Shown here: positions 28,777-35,649 of the stretch, one piece after another
Layout of the letters: the number at the start of each line of letters is the position of its first letter
Position numbering within the stretch: position 1 is the first letter of the stretch
Source: Acidobacteriota bacterium
GTDB lineage: Bacteria; Acidobacteriota; Terriglobia; Acidiferrales; UBA7541
NCBI GenBank assembly: GCA_003224055.1
Contig: QHYE01000002.1
Span: 1-46,801, forward strand
Length of the DNA stretch: 46,801 bases
Reading direction: 5' to 3'
Made by a program: the position numbers and the translations under genes
The notes under the pieces: model-generated
What the model was told of the DNA's origin: nothing
The model's input: only the letters and a program-made list of their open reading frames with translations
Databases searched by the model: none

Positions 28777-29769
28777 TTAGGCGATAGCCAAAGCCCGGCG
28801 AAGCACTTCGGGCGATATATTGGCGCCACTTACCACGAGCACAACATTCTCGCCATGATCGGTGCTGGATTTCGAAAGCGCCGCAGTGCTCGCGGCTCCG
28901 GCTGGCTCCGCTAACACATGCTCTTCTAAAAGAAGCGTTTCGATCGCCCGCAACATTTGTTCTTCGCTCACCAGCACAACGTCATCGACGAGGTTTTTCA
29001 CGTCGCGCACGTTTGCTGCTTCCGGAGTTCGCGTGGCCAACCCGTCGGCAATCGTGTCGCACGTTTCGGTGCCTACGACTTTGCCTTCCTTCCACGAGAG
29101 GTAATACGAAGGTGCGCGCTCCGCCTGCACGCCGACGATTTTCACCTGGGGCGCAATCTGCTTCACCGCGGCGGCGATTCCGCGAATCAGCGCGGTGTCG
29201 CCCATGGGCACGAAAATCGCGCTCGCTTTCGGAAGTTGCTCCAGGATTTCGCAGCCGATCGTCGCAGGACCCGCAGGCAATTCGGCGTCCGTCGCGTCGT
29301 TCAGGAAATACACGCCCGGTTGCTTCGCGTATTCCGCGGCCAGCGCAGATGCCGACGCCAGGTCGCCGTCTCCGCTCTCGACGATCGCCGCTCCGAGCGA
29401 CGCGATGCGGCCGCGCTTCAACGGATTGCAATTCGTGGGCAAGAAAATCCTGGCCTTGATTCCAAATTGCTTCGCAGCGTACGCCACTGCCGCTCCATGA
29501 TTCCCCGTGCTGGAGGCGACCACTTCCACCACCCGCGCGCGGTTCATTCGCTGCGCCAACGCCCAGAAGGCGCCTCGCACCTTGAATGAGCTGGTCGGCA
29601 GTTCCGTTTCCAGCTTCAAGTAAACATCTTTGCCGGCCGCCGCGCCCAAATGAGGCGCAGCAACCAGCCGCGTCGGCGCAAAATATTTCGCGAGAAATTT
29701 CTGCGCCTCTCGAATCGCGGACATGCGAGGAACAATTTCCAATCCGGCTTTACCCGCCGATGAATTCAT
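28777..29769 (-). CDS. PLP-dependent threonine/serine dehydratase family protein
   Basis: From ATG 29769 the protein has 330 residues and the fold-type II PLP pattern: Lys63 in SSFKVRGA is the cofactor lysine, STGNHGAAVAYA binds the substrate carboxylate, and PMGDTAL takes the place of the usual glycine-rich phosphate loop (often GGGGL). It should deaminate threonine or serine, or a related hydroxy amino acid, to the 2-oxo acid. There is no C-terminal ACT regulatory domain, so it is more like catabolic or hydroxyaspartate-type members than feedback-regulated IlvA. The altered phosphate loop makes the substrate uncertain. The frame is open further upstream (29814) but the ATG at 29769 fits the family. 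Confidence 0.83.
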   Translation of the reverse strand: MNSSAGKAGLEIVPRMSAIREAQKFLAKYFAPTRLVAAPHLGAAAGKDVYLKLETELPTSSFKVRGAFWALAQRMNRARVVEVVASSTGNHGAAVAYAAKQFGIKARIFLPTNCNPLKRGRIASLGAAIVESGDGDLASASALAAEYAKQPGVYFLNDATDAELPAGPATIGCEILEQLPKASAIFVPMGDTALIRGIAAAVKQIAPQVKIVGVQAERAPSYYLSWKEGKVVGTETCDTIADGLATRTPEAANVRDVKNLVDDVVLVSEEQMLRAIETLLLEEHVLAEPAGAASTAALSKSSTDHGENVVLVVSGANISPEVLRRALAIA

Positions 29770-30245
29770 CCGCCCACCGGCATGGTCAGTCTCCGACCAT
29801 CTCAAGCACTGCACCCGTATCTGTGATAAGTTCTTCCGCGCCTCTCCCAGGTCTTTGAAGGACCAAGTGCGCGAGTCGCCAGACTATCATTCGCCACTGA
29901 GTCCACGGCTTCGGACCCTGTATTCTCTGGTATTGCGCGGCACGTACGGCCATCGCCAACTATGTTTGCCTGTGCGAGGAACCCGGGCGGACGCAGACAC
30001 TCGAATTCATCAAGTCCGCGCGGCGAGGAAAAGTTGCCGTAATCTCCGTTGCTCAAAGCTTAGATAGAGGCCCTGCCCTGCAACGCTCCTAACGGAAGGC
30101 GTGGGCCTCTCTTGATTTCCAACTCTCGACACGTCCACCTTTTGGTCGAAAGCGAGCCATTCAAATCCGAGGGGCCTGGTGCCTCGATTCAGCAGATGCA
30201 GCCTGCGATTTCCTGGGCTACTCCGCAGCTGAATGCCCCGCCTGC
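29770..30245. other. Intergenic region without a supported gene
   Basis: About 475 bases between the dehydratase start and the end of the collagen-like gene, both on the minus strand. A plus-strand frame at 29901-30092 is open without ATG, GTG or TTG near its beginning and reads like protein in part (LEFIKSARRGKVAVISVAQ); it could be a gene remnant or chance. A hairpin with arms AGAGGCCC/GGGCCTCT (30066-30110) lies downstream of the collagen-like gene and could end its transcript, but it lacks a T-run. Confidence 0.4.
30066..30110 (-). terminator. Stem-loop downstream of the collagen-like gene (possible terminator)
   Basis: Arms of eight perfect pairs (AGAGGCCC/GGGCCTCT), extended by a further four after one bulge, enclose a ~20-base loop. 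There is no T-run behind it on either strand, so it may be a Rho-type or RNA-stability element rather than an intrinsic terminator. Confidence 0.25.
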
Positions 30246-31388
30246 TCACCAACTGAACAAAGCATAGCCTCCTTGACCGGCTTGCGCGGGAGGAGTAACA
30301 ACCACCCCTGCCCCGCCGCCCCCAAACTGCCCATTGGGTTGGAAAACAAAACCGGTGATCAGGTAGCCCATTCCTCCACTGCCAAGGGGAGAGAAAGATG
30401 GCGCGGAAGCCCCACTATGGCTGATCATAGCGTTTGGGTCAGATGGCCCGCCGGCAGCGCCAGCGGTAGGTGGACCACATGGTGGTGAATCGGCCTGACC
30501 TCCAGTACCGCCATGGGCGACAGAAAGCACCGTGTTACTGGCGTCCAAGATTTGACTATCTCCTCCATTGCCTCCGGACGTAGAGGATAATGCCCCACCA
30601 ACTCCTCCGATCCCCACGTTGATTGTTAAAGTTTGACCCTCTTGGACGGCCAAGACCGTACTCGTATAGGCACCGGCACCTCCGCCGCCTCCGCTGTTGC
30701 ATCGCATGATGGCGCCCCCTCCACCGGCCCCGTACAGTTCTACGCTTAACCGGCTGACTCCAGCCGGCACGACGAAAGTGCCGTTGCTTTGAAACTCCTG
30801 CCTGCCGCTAAGCCCTCCACTCGATCCAGCAGGTCCCGCAGGGCCTTGGGGTCCAGTTGGGCCGGCAGGCCCCGCTGGGCCAATAGGACCAGTCTCTCCT
30901 GGAAATCCAGGCGCTCCGGCAGCACCTGCCGGACCGGTAGCGCCGGTGTCTCCCTTTGGCCCTTGTGGACCGGTGGCACCTTGGGGTCCAGCTGGACCGG
31001 CGGGCCCCGCAGGGCCAGTAGCGCCGGCGTCTCCTTTAGGCCCTGGCGGGCCGATTGGGCCAATGGCCAAATTGGGCAGCAACGTCACGCTAAGGTCGTT
31101 ATTGCCTGAAACCACTTCCACTGTGCGTGTGTCCGAGTTCCAACCCGAGTTCGGGATGGAAACCACCACCGTGTGCGTACCCACGGCGACGCTGATGCTC
31201 ATGGGCGTGACTTTGCCAGTGTCCGCACCGTCCACTGAGACGCTGGCACCCGTCGGAAACGAAGTCACCTTCAACGCGCCGTTGCCTCCCTGCGCCCCAG
31301 CTCTCCCGGGCGCAACCAAAAGCACAACAGCCAATACTGTCATCCAGACTATCTTGCTCGCCCAAACAACTCTGTTAGGCTGGTTCAT
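30246..31388 (-). CDS. Exported collagen-like protein with a PEGA-like domain and a glycine-rich C-terminal domain
   Basis: The 380-residue protein starts at ATG 31388 with AGGAGG upstream and a signal peptide (1-~32). Residues ~37-105 resemble a PEGA surface domain ([18 protein letters not shown]). Residues ~110-190 are 27 uninterrupted Gly-X-Y triplets rich in Pro at X ([16 protein letters not shown]), able to form a collagen triple helix. The C-terminal ~190 residues are very glycine-rich and beta-like ([20 protein letters not shown]). Bacterial collagen-like proteins are usually trimeric surface or matrix proteins. No sortase or outer-membrane anchor is visible, so how it is held is not known. 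Confidence 0.85.
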
Positions 31389-31770: not shown

Positions 31771-31875
31771 TTAATGCGTTGCGGCCTCCGCTGTTTCTGC
31801 TCTTCTCAATTCATTCCAAAGTTGAATGTACGGTTGCACGTCGCGCAGCATTCGAACGCATTTCTGAATTAAAGA
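31771..31875 (-). pseudogene. 3' remnant of a second DAHP synthase gene directly behind aroF
   Basis: Immediately after the aroF stop, the minus strand encodes in a different frame a peptide that lines up with the aroF C-terminus: [19 protein letters not shown] against [19 protein letters not shown], followed by TAA at 31771-31773. Shared residues are spelled with different third bases (for example CAA/CAG, CTT/CTC, AAT/AAC), so the copy diverged under selection before it was lost. Only about the last 35 codons remain. It is best read as what is left of a tandem or foreign aroF paralogue after deletion. Confidence 0.7.
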
Positions 31876-31877
31876 AT

Positions 31878-32924
31878 TCAACGGCCTGCGGTGGCGGCGA
31901 TTTCCGTCTTTCTCGATTCGTTCCAGAGCTGAATGTATGGCTCCAAGTCGTTCATCATTTTTTGGAATTGCGCGAGGTCCAGCGATTGCGCGCCGTCGCT
32001 GATGGCTTTCTCCGGCGCGGGATGCACTTCCACGATTAATCCGTCGGCGCCGATGGCCACGCCCGCGCGGGAAAGCGCCGGCACCAGGCTGCGCTTCCCG
32101 GTCGCGTGGCTGGGATCGAGAATCACCGGAAGGTGCGTCAGTTCATTCAGCGCGGGGATCGCCGCGATGTCGCAAGTGTTGCGCGTCACGGTTTCAAAGG
32201 TGCGAATTCCACGTTCGCACAAAATCACATCGGGATTTCCGTGCGCCGTGATGTATTCCGCGGACATCAAGAGCTCTTTCACCATGCTGCTCAAGCCGCG
32301 CTTCAATAGCACCGGCCGCCCGCATTTTCCCAGCGCTTTCAACAGCATGAAATTCTGCATGTTGCGCGCGCCCACCTGCATCACGTCCGCGTACTGCGCA
32401 ACCAAATCGACGTCGCTGTCGCTCATCACTTCCGTGATGATCGCCAGCCCCGTCGCCTTCTTCGCCTTCTGCAGCAGCTTCAATCCTTCTTCTTCCATGC
32501 CCTGAAAATCGTACGGCGAAGTGCGCGGCTTGAACGCGCCGCCGCGCAGCATTTTCGCGCCCGCTTTCGCCACGCCTTCCGCGGCTTGCATGATCTGCTT
32601 TTCGGATTCCACCGAACACGGTCCCGCCATTACCACGAATTCGTCGCCGCCGATCTCCGTGCCGTTTACTTTAATCCGCGTCTTTCCCTGGCGGAATTCC
32701 TTGCTCACAAATTTGTACGGCGCGGAAATTCGCACCACCTTTTCGACTTGCGGCATCGCTTCGACGGATTCCAGGCACGCCGTTACGTCACCCACGCCGA
32801 CGACGCCGATGACCACGCGTTCTTCGCCTTCGATGGAATGCACTTTGTAACCGAAGTGTGCCACTTGCTCGCGAACTTCATCGATCTCTTCCCGCGTCGC
32901 ATGCAATTTCATGGAGATAATCAT
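31878..32924 (-). CDS. aroF: 3-deoxy-7-phosphoheptulonate (DAHP) synthase, type I-beta
   Basis: This enzyme condenses phosphoenolpyruvate and erythrose 4-phosphate to DAHP, the first step of the shikimate pathway to Phe, Tyr and Trp. Of 348 residues, ~1-70 are the ferredoxin-like (ACT-type) N-terminal domain that usually confers feedback inhibition. The barrel follows with GPCSVES (101-107), [22 protein letters not shown], and metal-binding DPSHATG. Length and domain order fit the Thermotoga/Bacillus-like I-beta group. GGAAAG precedes the ATG at 32924. Upstream lies an apparent aromatic attenuator (terminator 32963-32990, leader peptide 33016-33105). Confidence 0.96.
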
Positions 32925-32962
32925 CTTTCCGGCCCTCTCAATTTATTTTTGTCCCGTAAAAC

Positions 32963-32990
32963 AAAAAACCCACTCCGCTTGCGAGTGGGT
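32963..32990 (-). terminator. Intrinsic terminator ahead of aroF, probable attenuator
   Basis: On the minus strand ACCCACTC and GAGTGGGT form a perfect 8-bp stem with a 7-base loop, followed at once by six T and then a further T-rich stretch. It ends ~40 bases before the aroF ATG, so transcripts from upstream must pass it to express aroF. It may also end the sigma/anti-sigma/CAP operon. With the aromatic-rich frame just upstream, attenuation is the more specific reading. Confidence 0.75.
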
Positions 32991-33015
32991 CGAATCTTTT
33001 TTCTGCTGGATTCGC

Positions 33016-33105
33016 TTACAGAAACGCCCCCCGCCTCCCGGATGGATCCCAAGTAAATCGATACCAGCGATAGGAGATGGCGAGCCGCGCATTCATGGTC
33101 CGCAT
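33016..33105 (-). CDS. Candidate aromatic-amino-acid leader peptide of aroF
   Basis: A 29-codon frame (or 26 codons from the second ATG, 33096) ends 26 bases before the terminator stem. Codons 12-19 read Y-R-W-Y-R-F-T-W: five aromatic residues in eight, covering all three end-products of the pathway that aroF opens. The layout promoter, aromatic-rich short peptide, terminator, biosynthetic gene is that of trp/phe-type attenuators. The predicted transcript start is so close to the first ATG that translation may begin leaderless at the second one. The usual competing antiterminator hairpin is not clear by eye; a CGAATC/GATTCG stem sits between the stop and the terminator. Confidence 0.6.
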   Translation of the reverse strand: MRTMNARLAISYRWYRFTWDPSGRRGAFL

Positions 33106-33134
33106 AGTGTATTTTGTCTTTCGCTCCGATTCAA
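33106..33134 (-). promoter_or_regulatory. Candidate aroF promoter
   Basis: TTGAAT (33129-33134) and TACACT (33106-33111) are separated by exactly 17 bases; each matches four of six consensus positions. The start point would fall around 33099, inside or just at the beginning of the leader-peptide frame. Confidence 0.4.
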
Positions 33135-33956: not shown

Positions 33957-34679
33957 TTATCCGCGCACGTGCACGGCGCTGAAGCTGAGAATCACGTGGC
34001 CGCCGGCAGTGGGACGGCCGAAGCTCAACATGGGGCTGAAGCGCGAGAAGAGTAGCATCTGATCGAGCTGGCGGCGCAGCTCGTGGCTGTCCGGACCGGA
34101 AAGAATTTGATAGTCGGTCATCTGGCCGTGCGCGTCCACGATGACGTCAAGGAGCAGGTCGTGCGGCAAAGAAAGTTCAAGGTCGTTCTGTTCCGGGGCC
34201 CAGGATTGTGGGTAGTCCGAAAGAGTGACGAGCTCGGCGGGGCGCATCAGATTAAGAGCGACATCGTTTTGCACGGCGCGCACGGTGATGCCAGGAGCAA
34301 TCATTTGGAAAACCAGAACAAAAACGACGATGGCAGAGAGAAATCCGCCGGTGGCCGGGACGGTGAGCGGACGGAAAACGTTGTCGAGCAAAATTTCAGA
34401 GCGATCCTTCATGCGACGCACGCGGCTCGGCCAATCGTGCGAATGCTGGGCCTGGGCGGCAGCCACCTTGATGCGCACGGCGAGATCCGCGGGCGGATCG
34501 TTCTTCGGCACGCGGGACAAGAGCACGGAGAGCTTGCGGAACTTTTCCAGTTCCGCGCGGCAAACATTGCAGCCTTCGAGGTGTTCGCGAATCACGGTGC
34601 GCTCTTCGACGCGCGCCGCGCCCGTCACCACATCATCAAGATAGCCAGGGAGCCTGGTTCTTACCGTTTGGCACTTCAT
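33957..34679 (-). CDS. Transmembrane anti-sigma factor with zinc-finger domain and TonB-like C-terminus
   Basis: Residues ~1-50 form the anti-sigma zinc-binding domain (zf-HC2 type; ligands in HLEGCNVCRAEL). One membrane helix lies at ~110-130 (GGFLSAIVVFVLVF). The periplasmic part ends with a segment resembling a TonB/energy-transducer C-terminal domain (LLDVIVDAHGQMTDYQILSG). It should hold the ECF sigma factor encoded just upstream (4-bp overlap, ATGA at 34676-34679) at the membrane until a signal releases it. The TonB-like end is a resemblance only. Confidence 0.85.
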   Translation of the reverse strand: MKCQTVRTRLPGYLDDVVTGAARVEERTVIREHLEGCNVCRAELEKFRKLSVLLSRVPKNDPPADLAVRIKVAAAQAQHSHDWPSRVRRMKDRSEILLDNVFRPLTVPATGGFLSAIVVFVLVFQMIAPGITVRAVQNDVALNLMRPAELVTLSDYPQSWAPEQNDLELSLPHDLLLDVIVDAHGQMTDYQILSGPDSHELRRQLDQMLLFSRFSPMLSFGRPTAGGHVILSFSAVHVRG

Positions 34680-35491
34680 GGATGACCCTCTTCCGCAGAA
34701 CTTGCCCGCGGGGATACTGATTCAGGCGACCGCGAAGCGGTCAGCGATTCTGGTGACCGCGAAGCGGTCAGCCTCTGTGAAGAAACTGTTACCTGACGCG
34801 CGGCCGTGAAAGCATCCGAAAAAGGCGAAGGCTGCGGCTCGGCGATTGCGCCGTGCGTATTTGTTTGCGCGCGATGGCTGTGAAGCTCTCCGCCCGCGAG
34901 CAACGGCTCCAAAAGATCCTTCAGCGCGCGGCGGCCGCGAAGAATTCTGGACTTCACGGTGCCGATACTGCACTCGAGGACTTCCGCAACTTCCTCGTAG
35001 CTGAGACCTTCGAGGTCACGCAAAATCACCGCGGTGCGAAAAACGTCAGGAACCTGCTGCAAGGCGCCGCGCACAGCCACTTGAATTTCCATGGCGGCAA
35101 GCTGCTCGAATGGGGTGCCGCCACGATCTTCGATTTCCATGTGCGCGTGCCCTTCTTCGGGCTCGGCATCGATGGAGACGTTTTTTTGCAGATGCCGCTT
35201 AAACCAGCGCTTGTGGTTCAGCGCTTCGCGAATGGCGATGCGATAGAGCCAGGTTTTCAAGGAGCTGCCCTGGCGGAAATTGCGAATGCCGCGAAAGGCT
35301 TTCAAGAAAACTTCCTGGGTGCCGTCGGCCGCGTCCGAAGTGTCGCCCAGCATGCCGAGGATGAGGTTATAGACCGGCGCATGATAGTGGGTGACGAGCC
35401 AGTCGAATGCCGTCTCCGAGCCTGTTTGCAGCTCGTGGACGAGGTTGGCTTCATCGTGGCCCCATGACAGGGCACTAGCCCAATCGGACAC
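34676..35491 (-). CDS. ECF-type RNA polymerase sigma factor
   Basis: Sigma-70 region 2 (residues ~20-90; DGTQEVFLKAFRGIRNFR, then LKTWLYRIA) and region 4 (~125-185; LRDLEGLSYEEVAEVL, GTVKSRILRGRRAL) are clear; no region 3 is present, as in extracytoplasmic sigma factors. I chose GTG 35491 with GGAAAGG upstream; a TTG at 35524 is possible. The C-terminal ~80 residues are a Ser/Pro/Ala-rich tail not typical of the family and contain two copies of a hairpin-forming repeat (SLTASRSPE). It is overlapped by its anti-sigma gene. Confidence 0.9.
   Translation of the reverse strand: MSDWASALSWGHDEANLVHELQTGSETAFDWLVTHYHAPVYNLILGMLGDTSDAADGTQEVFLKAFRGIRNFRQGSSLKTWLYRIAIREALNHKRWFKRHLQKNVSIDAEPEEGHAHMEIEDRGGTPFEQLAAMEIQVAVRGALQQVPDVFRTAVILRDLEGLSYEEVAEVLECSIGTVKSRILRGRRALKDLLEPLLAGGELHSHRAQTNTHGAIAEPQPSPFSDAFTAARQVTVSSQRLTASRSPESLTASRSPESVSPRASSAEEGHP
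34719..34772 (-). repeat. Two tandem 27-bp hairpin repeats within the sigma-factor gene
   Basis: Two adjacent 27-base units differ at two positions and each carries the inverted repeat GACCGC-GAA-GCGGTC (7 bp in the second, with flanking T/A). In protein they encode (S)LTASRSPE twice. They preserve the reading frame, as do palindromic elements that insert into coding DNA in some bacteria. Confidence 0.7.
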
Positions 35492-35649
35492 TGCCGGCCT
35501 TTCCGACCCGATCTTTCTCAGCAACTATTACTTGGATGCTGGTTCGGGCCACCCTGCTGCGGTCTACGGTTAGAACGGTAGACCCAGGCACGACTTGCAA
35601 ACCGGGACGGCGTCGAGCTGTTGCCGTAACCGATGTCCGCTCACTCCTG

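Follow-up and report, generated by a model that had tools for sequence, protein, structure and literature searches.

A candidate ribosome-mediated attenuator with phenylalanine, tyrosine, and tryptophan codons upstream of aroF in Acidobacteriota

Introduction

The window, a stretch of 46,801 nucleotides from an Acidobacteriota bacterium analyzed at its full length, includes a gene for the first common enzyme of the shikimate pathway, aroF. A short open reading frame rich in aromatic codons and an intrinsic terminator lie ahead of it. Ribosome-mediated attenuation is a textbook mechanism, and the arrangement raises the question of whether expression of this aroF gene is controlled in this way by the supply of aromatic amino acids. 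A preliminary description had proposed this reading. The analysis reported here supports it at the level of sequence comparison and corrects the start codon of the leader and the identity of the codons that would operate the switch. The elements of the region, all in the minus strand, are listed below.

33129-33134, minus strand: -35 box TTGAAT, with a TTG conserved in relatives
33106-33111, minus strand: -10 box TACACT, separated from the -35 box by a 17-nt spacer
33099 (+/- 2), minus strand: predicted transcription start, placed from the -10 position
33016-33096, minus strand: leader open reading frame MNARLAISYRWYRFTWDPSGRRGAFL followed by the stop codon, probably leaderless
33073-33085, minus strand: strand 1, a part of the leader paired with strand 2 in the minimum free energy fold of the free RNA
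33049-33072, minus strand: control codons Y9-R10-W11-Y12-R13(CGA)-F14-T15-W16, numbered from ATG 33096
33021-33035, minus strand: strand 2, the antiterminator 5′ strand GGCGGGGGGCGTTTC, near the stop codon of the leader
32981-32996, minus strand: strand 3, GATTCGACCCACTCGC, which pairs with strand 2 or strand 4
32968-32990, minus strand: stem-loop of the intrinsic terminator, formed by strands 3 and 4 with 8 perfect pairs
32963-32968, minus strand: T-run TTTTTT, the first T shared with the terminator stem
32925-32939, minus strand: GAGAGGGCCGGAAAG region with a Shine-Dalgarno-like part, before aroF
31878-32924, minus strand: aroF, encoding a TIGR01361-type DAHP synthase that has an N-terminal extension

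Results

The gene located after the terminator had been described as a DAHP synthase gene, and comparison of its product with protein models agrees with this identification. The protein scored 488 bits against the 3-deoxy-7-phosphoheptulonate synthase model NF006421 (cut-off 335) and 392 bits against TIGR01361, and the solved enzymes 4grs and 1rzm are similar to it across residues 1-329. Three full-length DAHP synthases and one more distant match (residues 84-329) are found in the genome from which the window originates, and only the aroF copy in the window is preceded by a leader of the aromatic type. No comparable leader adjoins the genes of the DAHP synthase paralogues on contigs C60 and C64; aromatic-rich frames near them lie 445-454 and 263 nt upstream, respectively. 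The region upstream of trpE of the same genome likewise has no leader of the aromatic type (L209). Other features were noticed in the vicinity of aroF. The stretch directly 3′ of the gene, at about 31781-31863 (minus strand), resembles a second, diverged aroF C-terminus and is perhaps the remnant of a partial duplication; another genome, G011, has a fragment matching aroF residues 309-347 near its own aroF. A gene for an ECF sigma factor overlaps by 4 bases with a gene whose product resembles an anti-sigma factor (33957-35524, minus strand); the pair is located one gene upstream of the aroF leader.

The presence of similar leaders was surveyed in 81 aroF-upstream regions (80 named GTDB loci and the window) collected by genome and related-locus searches. 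An automatic test recognized as a leader an ATG mini-ORF in which a stretch of 12 residues included at least four aromatic ones and which had a -10-like box (TANNNT) located 4-12 nt ahead of the ATG. The test was passed by 63 regions, and the addition by eye of six more brought the number of leaders to 69 of 81 (among those added, L109 begins with GTG; L087 is a weak case). Among the 12 remaining loci, two had less than 50 nt of upstream sequence and ten showed no leader in 600 nt. When the strict test was restricted to regions of at least 350 nt, 63 of 79 passed against a mean of 0.6 (maximum 2) per 79 in 20 dinucleotide-preserving shuffles, although the 79 loci are kin to one another and the 63 passes do not represent 63 independent events. 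None of the 79 opposite strands and none of 218 stretches taken further upstream passed. The ten regions among these 79 that lack the leader include two from the window's own genus (L045 and L057), and a third locus of this genus, L021 (genome G010), also has no leader. By eye, L057 keeps a terminator-like hairpin and T-run behind a promoter-like box, and the sequences upstream of aroF in L045 and L021 contain short repeats of a different type. Inspection by eye of six aroF loci lacking the leader frame (L069, L090, L101, L102, L104, and L112) showed mostly a common inverted repeat, ACACC(A)-spacer-(T)GGTGG, which is possibly an operator used in place of attenuation.

The promoter TTGAAT-17-TACACT proposed in the preliminary description is found in the minus strand (33134-33129 and 33111-33106) and agrees with the consensus at 8 of 12 positions. 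An automatic promoter scan with a threshold of 9/12 gave no match at the leader, i.e., it misses the leader's own boxes. The promoter is credible because its boxes are conserved among relatives and not because of its consensus score: a -35 TTG was found at a spacing of 16-18 in 52 of 63 loci, when displaced positions would lead one to expect it in about 3. The window has two in-frame ATG codons that could start the leader, 33105 and 33096. The first of them, taken as the start in the preliminary description, touches the -10 box and would therefore precede the transcription start. The second lies 9 nt beyond the -10 box, a spacing common to the relatives, and for these two reasons the start has been moved to 33096, which is most likely the start codon. 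The gap between the -10 box and the leader ATG is 6-9 nt in 59 of the 63 loci that passed the test, and a Shine-Dalgarno-like 4-mer precedes only 3 of 69 leader ATGs as opposed to 55 of 69 aroF starts (counted for aroF at 5-15 nt ahead of the start). Both observations strengthen the earlier suggestion that translation may be leaderless. The mini-ORFs are probably leaderless, most of their ATGs being located 6-9 nt after the -10 box without a Shine-Dalgarno sequence, and the spacing fits a transcript that starts 0-4 nt ahead of the leader AUG. In the window, the -10 position predicts a 5′ untranslated region of about 3 nt.

Translation from ATG 33105 yields MRTMNARLAISYRWYRFTWDPSGRRGAFL followed by a stop codon, and codons 12-19 of this frame read Y-R-W-Y-R-F-T-W, as originally noticed. 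Phe, Tyr, and Trp are all encoded in 66 of the 69 leaders, the exceptions being L068, L071, and L087, which have no Trp codon. The leaders range from 13 to 33 residues, and the peptide context and the order of the aromatic residues also differ widely between loci. Ten close relatives with a 26-codon leader could be compared codon by codon. The expectation that aromatic codons would be conserved while the others drift was borne out for the core, where Y9, W11, Y12, and F14, together with R13, are unchanged in 10 of 10 and neighboring codons vary (codons 2-5, 7, 8, 10, 17, 20, 21, and 25 are among those that do). It did not hold for the later aromatic codons W16, W21, and F25, which change, nor for A6, T15, S19, and R22, which are constant. 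Over the whole 26-codon leader, the mostly aromatic columns were no cleaner than the other columns; variant codons were 1 synonymous and 6 non-synonymous in the aromatic columns, and 12 and 24, respectively, in the others. On this comparison, the constraint on the leader sits in the core codons.

A second conserved trait of the core is an Arg-Phe pair, found in 64 of the 69 leaders. The arginine codon that precedes Phe is CGA in 60 of 68 such arginines compared with 11 of 114 leader arginines elsewhere, and CGATTT is invariant in all 24 rows of the alignment named A1. The corresponding CGA in the window, codon 13, occupies positions 33058-33060 (minus strand). In the his leader of Salmonella, CGA is described as showing a high degree of stalling (PMC4046918), and CGA could possibly act here as a slow codon that times the ribosome relative to RNA polymerase. 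Alternatively, its conservation may reflect RNA pairing, since the same letters join the helix between strands 1 and 2 in a second alignment, A2.

The perfect 8-bp terminator stem with a T-run of the preliminary description stands. It reads ACCCACTC-GCAAGCG-GAGTGGGT (32990-32968) and is followed by T's. A terminator was found at 65 of the 69 leader loci (all but L062, L068, L085, and L109). Out of these 65, 61 are included in the alignment A3, 24 in A1, and 30, of the Bryobacterales type, in A2; 11 are in neither A1 nor A2, and those left out of A3 are the near-duplicates L041 and L061 and the atypical L049 and L067. In A2, the terminator stem is paired in 98.9% of the cells and four pairs have changed on both sides, a result that none of 500 shuffles equaled.

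The competing antiterminator had been considered not obvious. A candidate strand that pairs with the 5′ arm of the terminator was found near the stop codon of the leader, where it constitutes a near copy of the terminator 3′ arm. In the Bryobacterales type, GAGTGG-N-GTTGG lies opposite CCAAC-CCACTC, and in the window's group GGCGRGGGGCG lies opposite CGACCCACTCGC. Complementarity between these strands was observed in 87.5% of the cells of A2 and 91.5% of those of A1, against 31-45% and 37-48%, respectively, when one strand was slid, a margin that is partly expected because the helix was drawn from these same sequences. Covariation is nearly absent. In both A1 and A2, shuffled partners did as well as the real ones, given how little either strand varies; in L105, all three strands share a single coordinated change. 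The duplex of strands 2 and 3 was evaluated, like the first folding sets, at the 58 loci whose terminator had been recognized in the automatic survey, and at 33 of them no more than 5 of 100 single-letter shuffles were as strong. The window's own duplex (-11.5 kcal/mol) was not better than chance, with 26 of 100 shuffles as low, and the same was true for most of its group. The helix between strands 1 and 2 was paired in 73.8% of the cells of A2 compared with 22-41% when slid, and it was weak against shuffles. RNAalifold returned the terminator alone, with two additional weak pairs in A1, because it cannot represent alternative structures.

The preliminary description had also called for folding of the leader with and without a ribosome. 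The ribosome was modeled by hiding the RNA as far as 12 nt beyond the start of the A-site codon, counted from its first base. In the window, the probability of the terminator was 0.97 in the free RNA and 0.97 with the ribosome at the stop codon. With the ribosome stalled at W11 it fell to 0.10, with the antiterminator at 0.67, and with a stall at Y12 the values were 0.04 and 0.71. A stall at Y9 or F14 had an intermediate effect (terminator 0.67 and 0.60, respectively), and one at W16 or F25 produced no switch and left the terminator intact. The minimum-energy folds gave the same picture for W11, Y12, F14, W16, and F25, and the Y9 stall gave the antiterminator when the fold included the T-run. 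In this model, then, the antiterminator is favored by a stall at W11 or Y12, the terminator is favored when the RNA is free or the ribosome has reached the stop codon, and the capacity to change the fold seems confined to the core codons. A full switch, defined over the free RNA, the stop codon, and the best stall, was observed in 31 of the 65 loci with a terminator, against a mean of 0.75 (maximum 3) in 12 rounds of leaders shuffled by single letters; this simple folding model gave no full switch in the other 34. Among 300 shuffles of the window by itself, 6 had an antiterminator probability as high as its best one, and 8 switched by the same definition. Since shuffled windows sometimes match the window, the family carries more of the weight of the switch than the individual sequence does.

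The distribution of the element was assessed with a covariance model, R1, built from 61 leaders. Its one convincing site in the window's genome precedes aroF (1.1e-27), and the only other row refers to the same place in the opposite strand (0.6). Across 399 genomes of the class, matches were found in 181 at an E-value of 1e-3 and in 133 at 2e-8, numbers that include the genomes supplying the sequences of R1 (at most 61) and, at 2e-8, one genome with a cysteine-type leader (L175). That genome is the only one of family f11 to match at 2e-8, while 31 genomes of the family match at 1e-3; the listed DAHP synthase matches of f11 are 50-56% identical, and on this basis the family may lack the orthologous gene. 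Forty loci were fetched for strong R1 hits, many of them building sequences of the model itself. An aromatic mini-ORF followed by a DAHP synthase gene is present in 38 (for three of these, the top-ranked frame was not the leader but one unrelated to it), and the other two are short stretches with no recognized gene. A DAHP synthase was recognized at 11 of 16 weaker or secondary places, including L173, L182, and L184, whose leaders have only 2-3 aromatic residues. Five weak hits away from aroF (L145, L146, L148, L149, and L150) were rejected as apparent chance matches or unrelated terminators, and so were L179 and L180, which are not aromatic leaders. Twenty regions upstream of distant DAHP synthase homologues of the phylum, 18 outside the class and two from f11, were also inspected. 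In four of them (L191, L203, L205, and L206, the first three with terminators visible by eye), 6-8 of 12 residues in a mini-ORF are aromatic, and the other 16 have at most four in 12.

Three R1 hits away from aroF correspond to cysteine-rich mini-ORFs followed by a terminator. They precede genes named by eye: a nitrite/sulfite-reductase-like protein in L147 (G018:C215:7273-7414, minus strand), an ATP-grasp, RimK-like protein in L144 (G008:C41:3571-3713, minus strand), and, 194 nt on, a YeiH-like membrane protein in L175 (G285:C7:199766-199895, minus strand). The window's genome has a cysteine-rich mini-ORF as well, MRTCCQTMCCPCACNAACCTSPISGQRSFRT followed by a stop codon, in L208 (G000:C119, upstream of 28787-30499, minus strand). 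It begins 8 nt after a TATTCT box, is followed by a terminator-like hairpin, and precedes a homologue of the nitrite/sulfite reductase of L147. Judged by these sequence features, L208 is a probable leaderless cysteine attenuator.

Discussion

The region upstream of aroF is very probably a ribosome-mediated transcription attenuator. Transcription would start at, or a few bases ahead of, the leader AUG, and the ribosome would begin on a nearly bare 5′ end. When charged Phe-, Tyr-, and Trp-tRNAs are plentiful, the ribosome would reach the stop codon and cover strand 2, leaving strand 3 to pair with strand 4, and the RNA polymerase would stop. When one of the charged tRNAs is scarce, the ribosome would stall in the Y-R-W-Y-R-F core and cover strand 1; strand 2 would then pair with strand 3, the terminator would not form, and aroF would be transcribed. 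RNA carrying no ribosome would fold as 1:2 plus 3:4 and would also terminate. The analysis shows the parts of the element, that they are conserved, that the strands are complementary, and that a switch is predicted; where transcription starts, that tRNA charge is sensed, that all three amino acids contribute, and which way aroF responds are what we infer from these data.

Other mechanisms could be considered for a conserved aromatic frame followed by a terminator. The peptide core itself (aromatic-Arg-Phe-aromatic) might arrest the ribosome when a free aromatic metabolite is sensed, with tRNA charge playing no part, in the manner of TnaC with tryptophan. The Arg-Phe pair, present in 64 of 69 leaders and beyond what a random mix of aromatic codons would give, speaks for such a mechanism. 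However, the constraint is seen at the codon level (CGA in 60 of 68 cases compared with 11 of 114 elsewhere), the context, length, and aromatic order vary widely between loci, and stalling in excess product would presumably raise aroF when aromatics are plentiful, which for a biosynthetic gene is the wrong direction. We regard peptide arrest as improbable.

That the frame is the gene of a functional micro-protein with its own terminator and no tie to the control of aroF is very improbable. It is indeed a conserved open reading frame equipped with promoter-like boxes and a terminator, but its conservation follows the aromatic core codons and not a fixed length, strand 2 mirrors strand 4, and the sole convincing site in the window's genome precedes aroF. 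In addition, no other promoter-like match was found before aroF, a weak argument given that the scan misses the leader's boxes too. A terminator and an antiterminator would look alike if a protein or a ligand operated them (riboswitch, T-box, or TRAP-like) and the mini-ORF were incidental. Nevertheless, the only Rfam match at gathering score in the whole window is a tRNA, with no family near the leader, and the most conserved stretch upstream of strand 2 is the aromatic core of the frame; a control of this kind is extremely improbable.

Attenuation governed by translation of the leader proposes both a function and a mechanism for an element that is widespread in a class of acidobacteria. With codons for the three aromatic amino acids placed before the first enzyme, a single leader could respond whenever any of the end-products runs short. 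The probable lack of a ribosome-binding site makes attenuation from leaderless transcripts testable in a new phylum, and the leader alignment could become an RNA family. A wider generalization can be offered tentatively, with doubt slightly outweighing confidence: leaderless attenuation may be general in Acidobacteriota, in the form of a CGA-timed three-aromatic sensor on the shikimate entry enzyme in several classes and of cysteine versions on sulfur genes within the same genomes. The mechanism is known, and what is new is the phylum, the presence of codons for all three aromatic amino acids in a single leader, and how large the family is. No acidobacterial aroF attenuator was found in searches of the openly accessible PMC literature; the survey of Lopatovskaya et al. 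2010 possibly contains an earlier prediction.

The multivalent ilv and thr attenuators of enterobacteria also place several end-products under one leader, but theirs are branched-chain amino acids or Thr/Ile and not three aromatics. The attenuators of E. coli trpL, pheL, and pheST have three alternative strands and a terminator, with leaders led by Shine-Dalgarno sequences. Their leader peptides and dependence on charged tRNA are described in PMC11802643. Each of them reads one amino acid and sits on terminal-branch genes or a tRNA synthetase, whereas the leader in the window has codons for three amino acids and precedes the first common enzyme. Leaderless short ORFs that control downstream genes are represented by the mycobacterial polycysteine ORFs (Canestrari et al. 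2020), as described in PMC9031893; they resemble the window's leader as leaderless mini-ORFs that read an amino acid, and differ from it in that the amino acid is cysteine and the phylum is another one. The cysteine-rich mini-ORF of L208, in the window's genome, has a similar appearance.

Among known attenuators, the closest is aroR-aroF of Corynebacterium. The C. glutamicum aroR-aroF transcripts are reportedly leaderless, as Neshat et al. 2014 are said to have found. The aroF leader peptide of this organism, which carries Phe-Tyr-Phe (PMC11802643), is also described in PMC4046766 and PMC7356990. According to the review PMC11802643, transcription of aroR-aroF increased under Phe limitation and Tyr availability had no effect. 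Since aroR has Phe and Tyr codons and is reported to show no effect of Tyr, aromatic codons alone are no proof that a leader senses all three amino acids. As in the window, aroR is a leader peptide with aromatic codons ahead of a DAHP synthase gene; unlike the acidobacterial leaders, 66 of 69 of which encode all three aromatic amino acids, it belongs to another phylum and its reported motif has no Trp.
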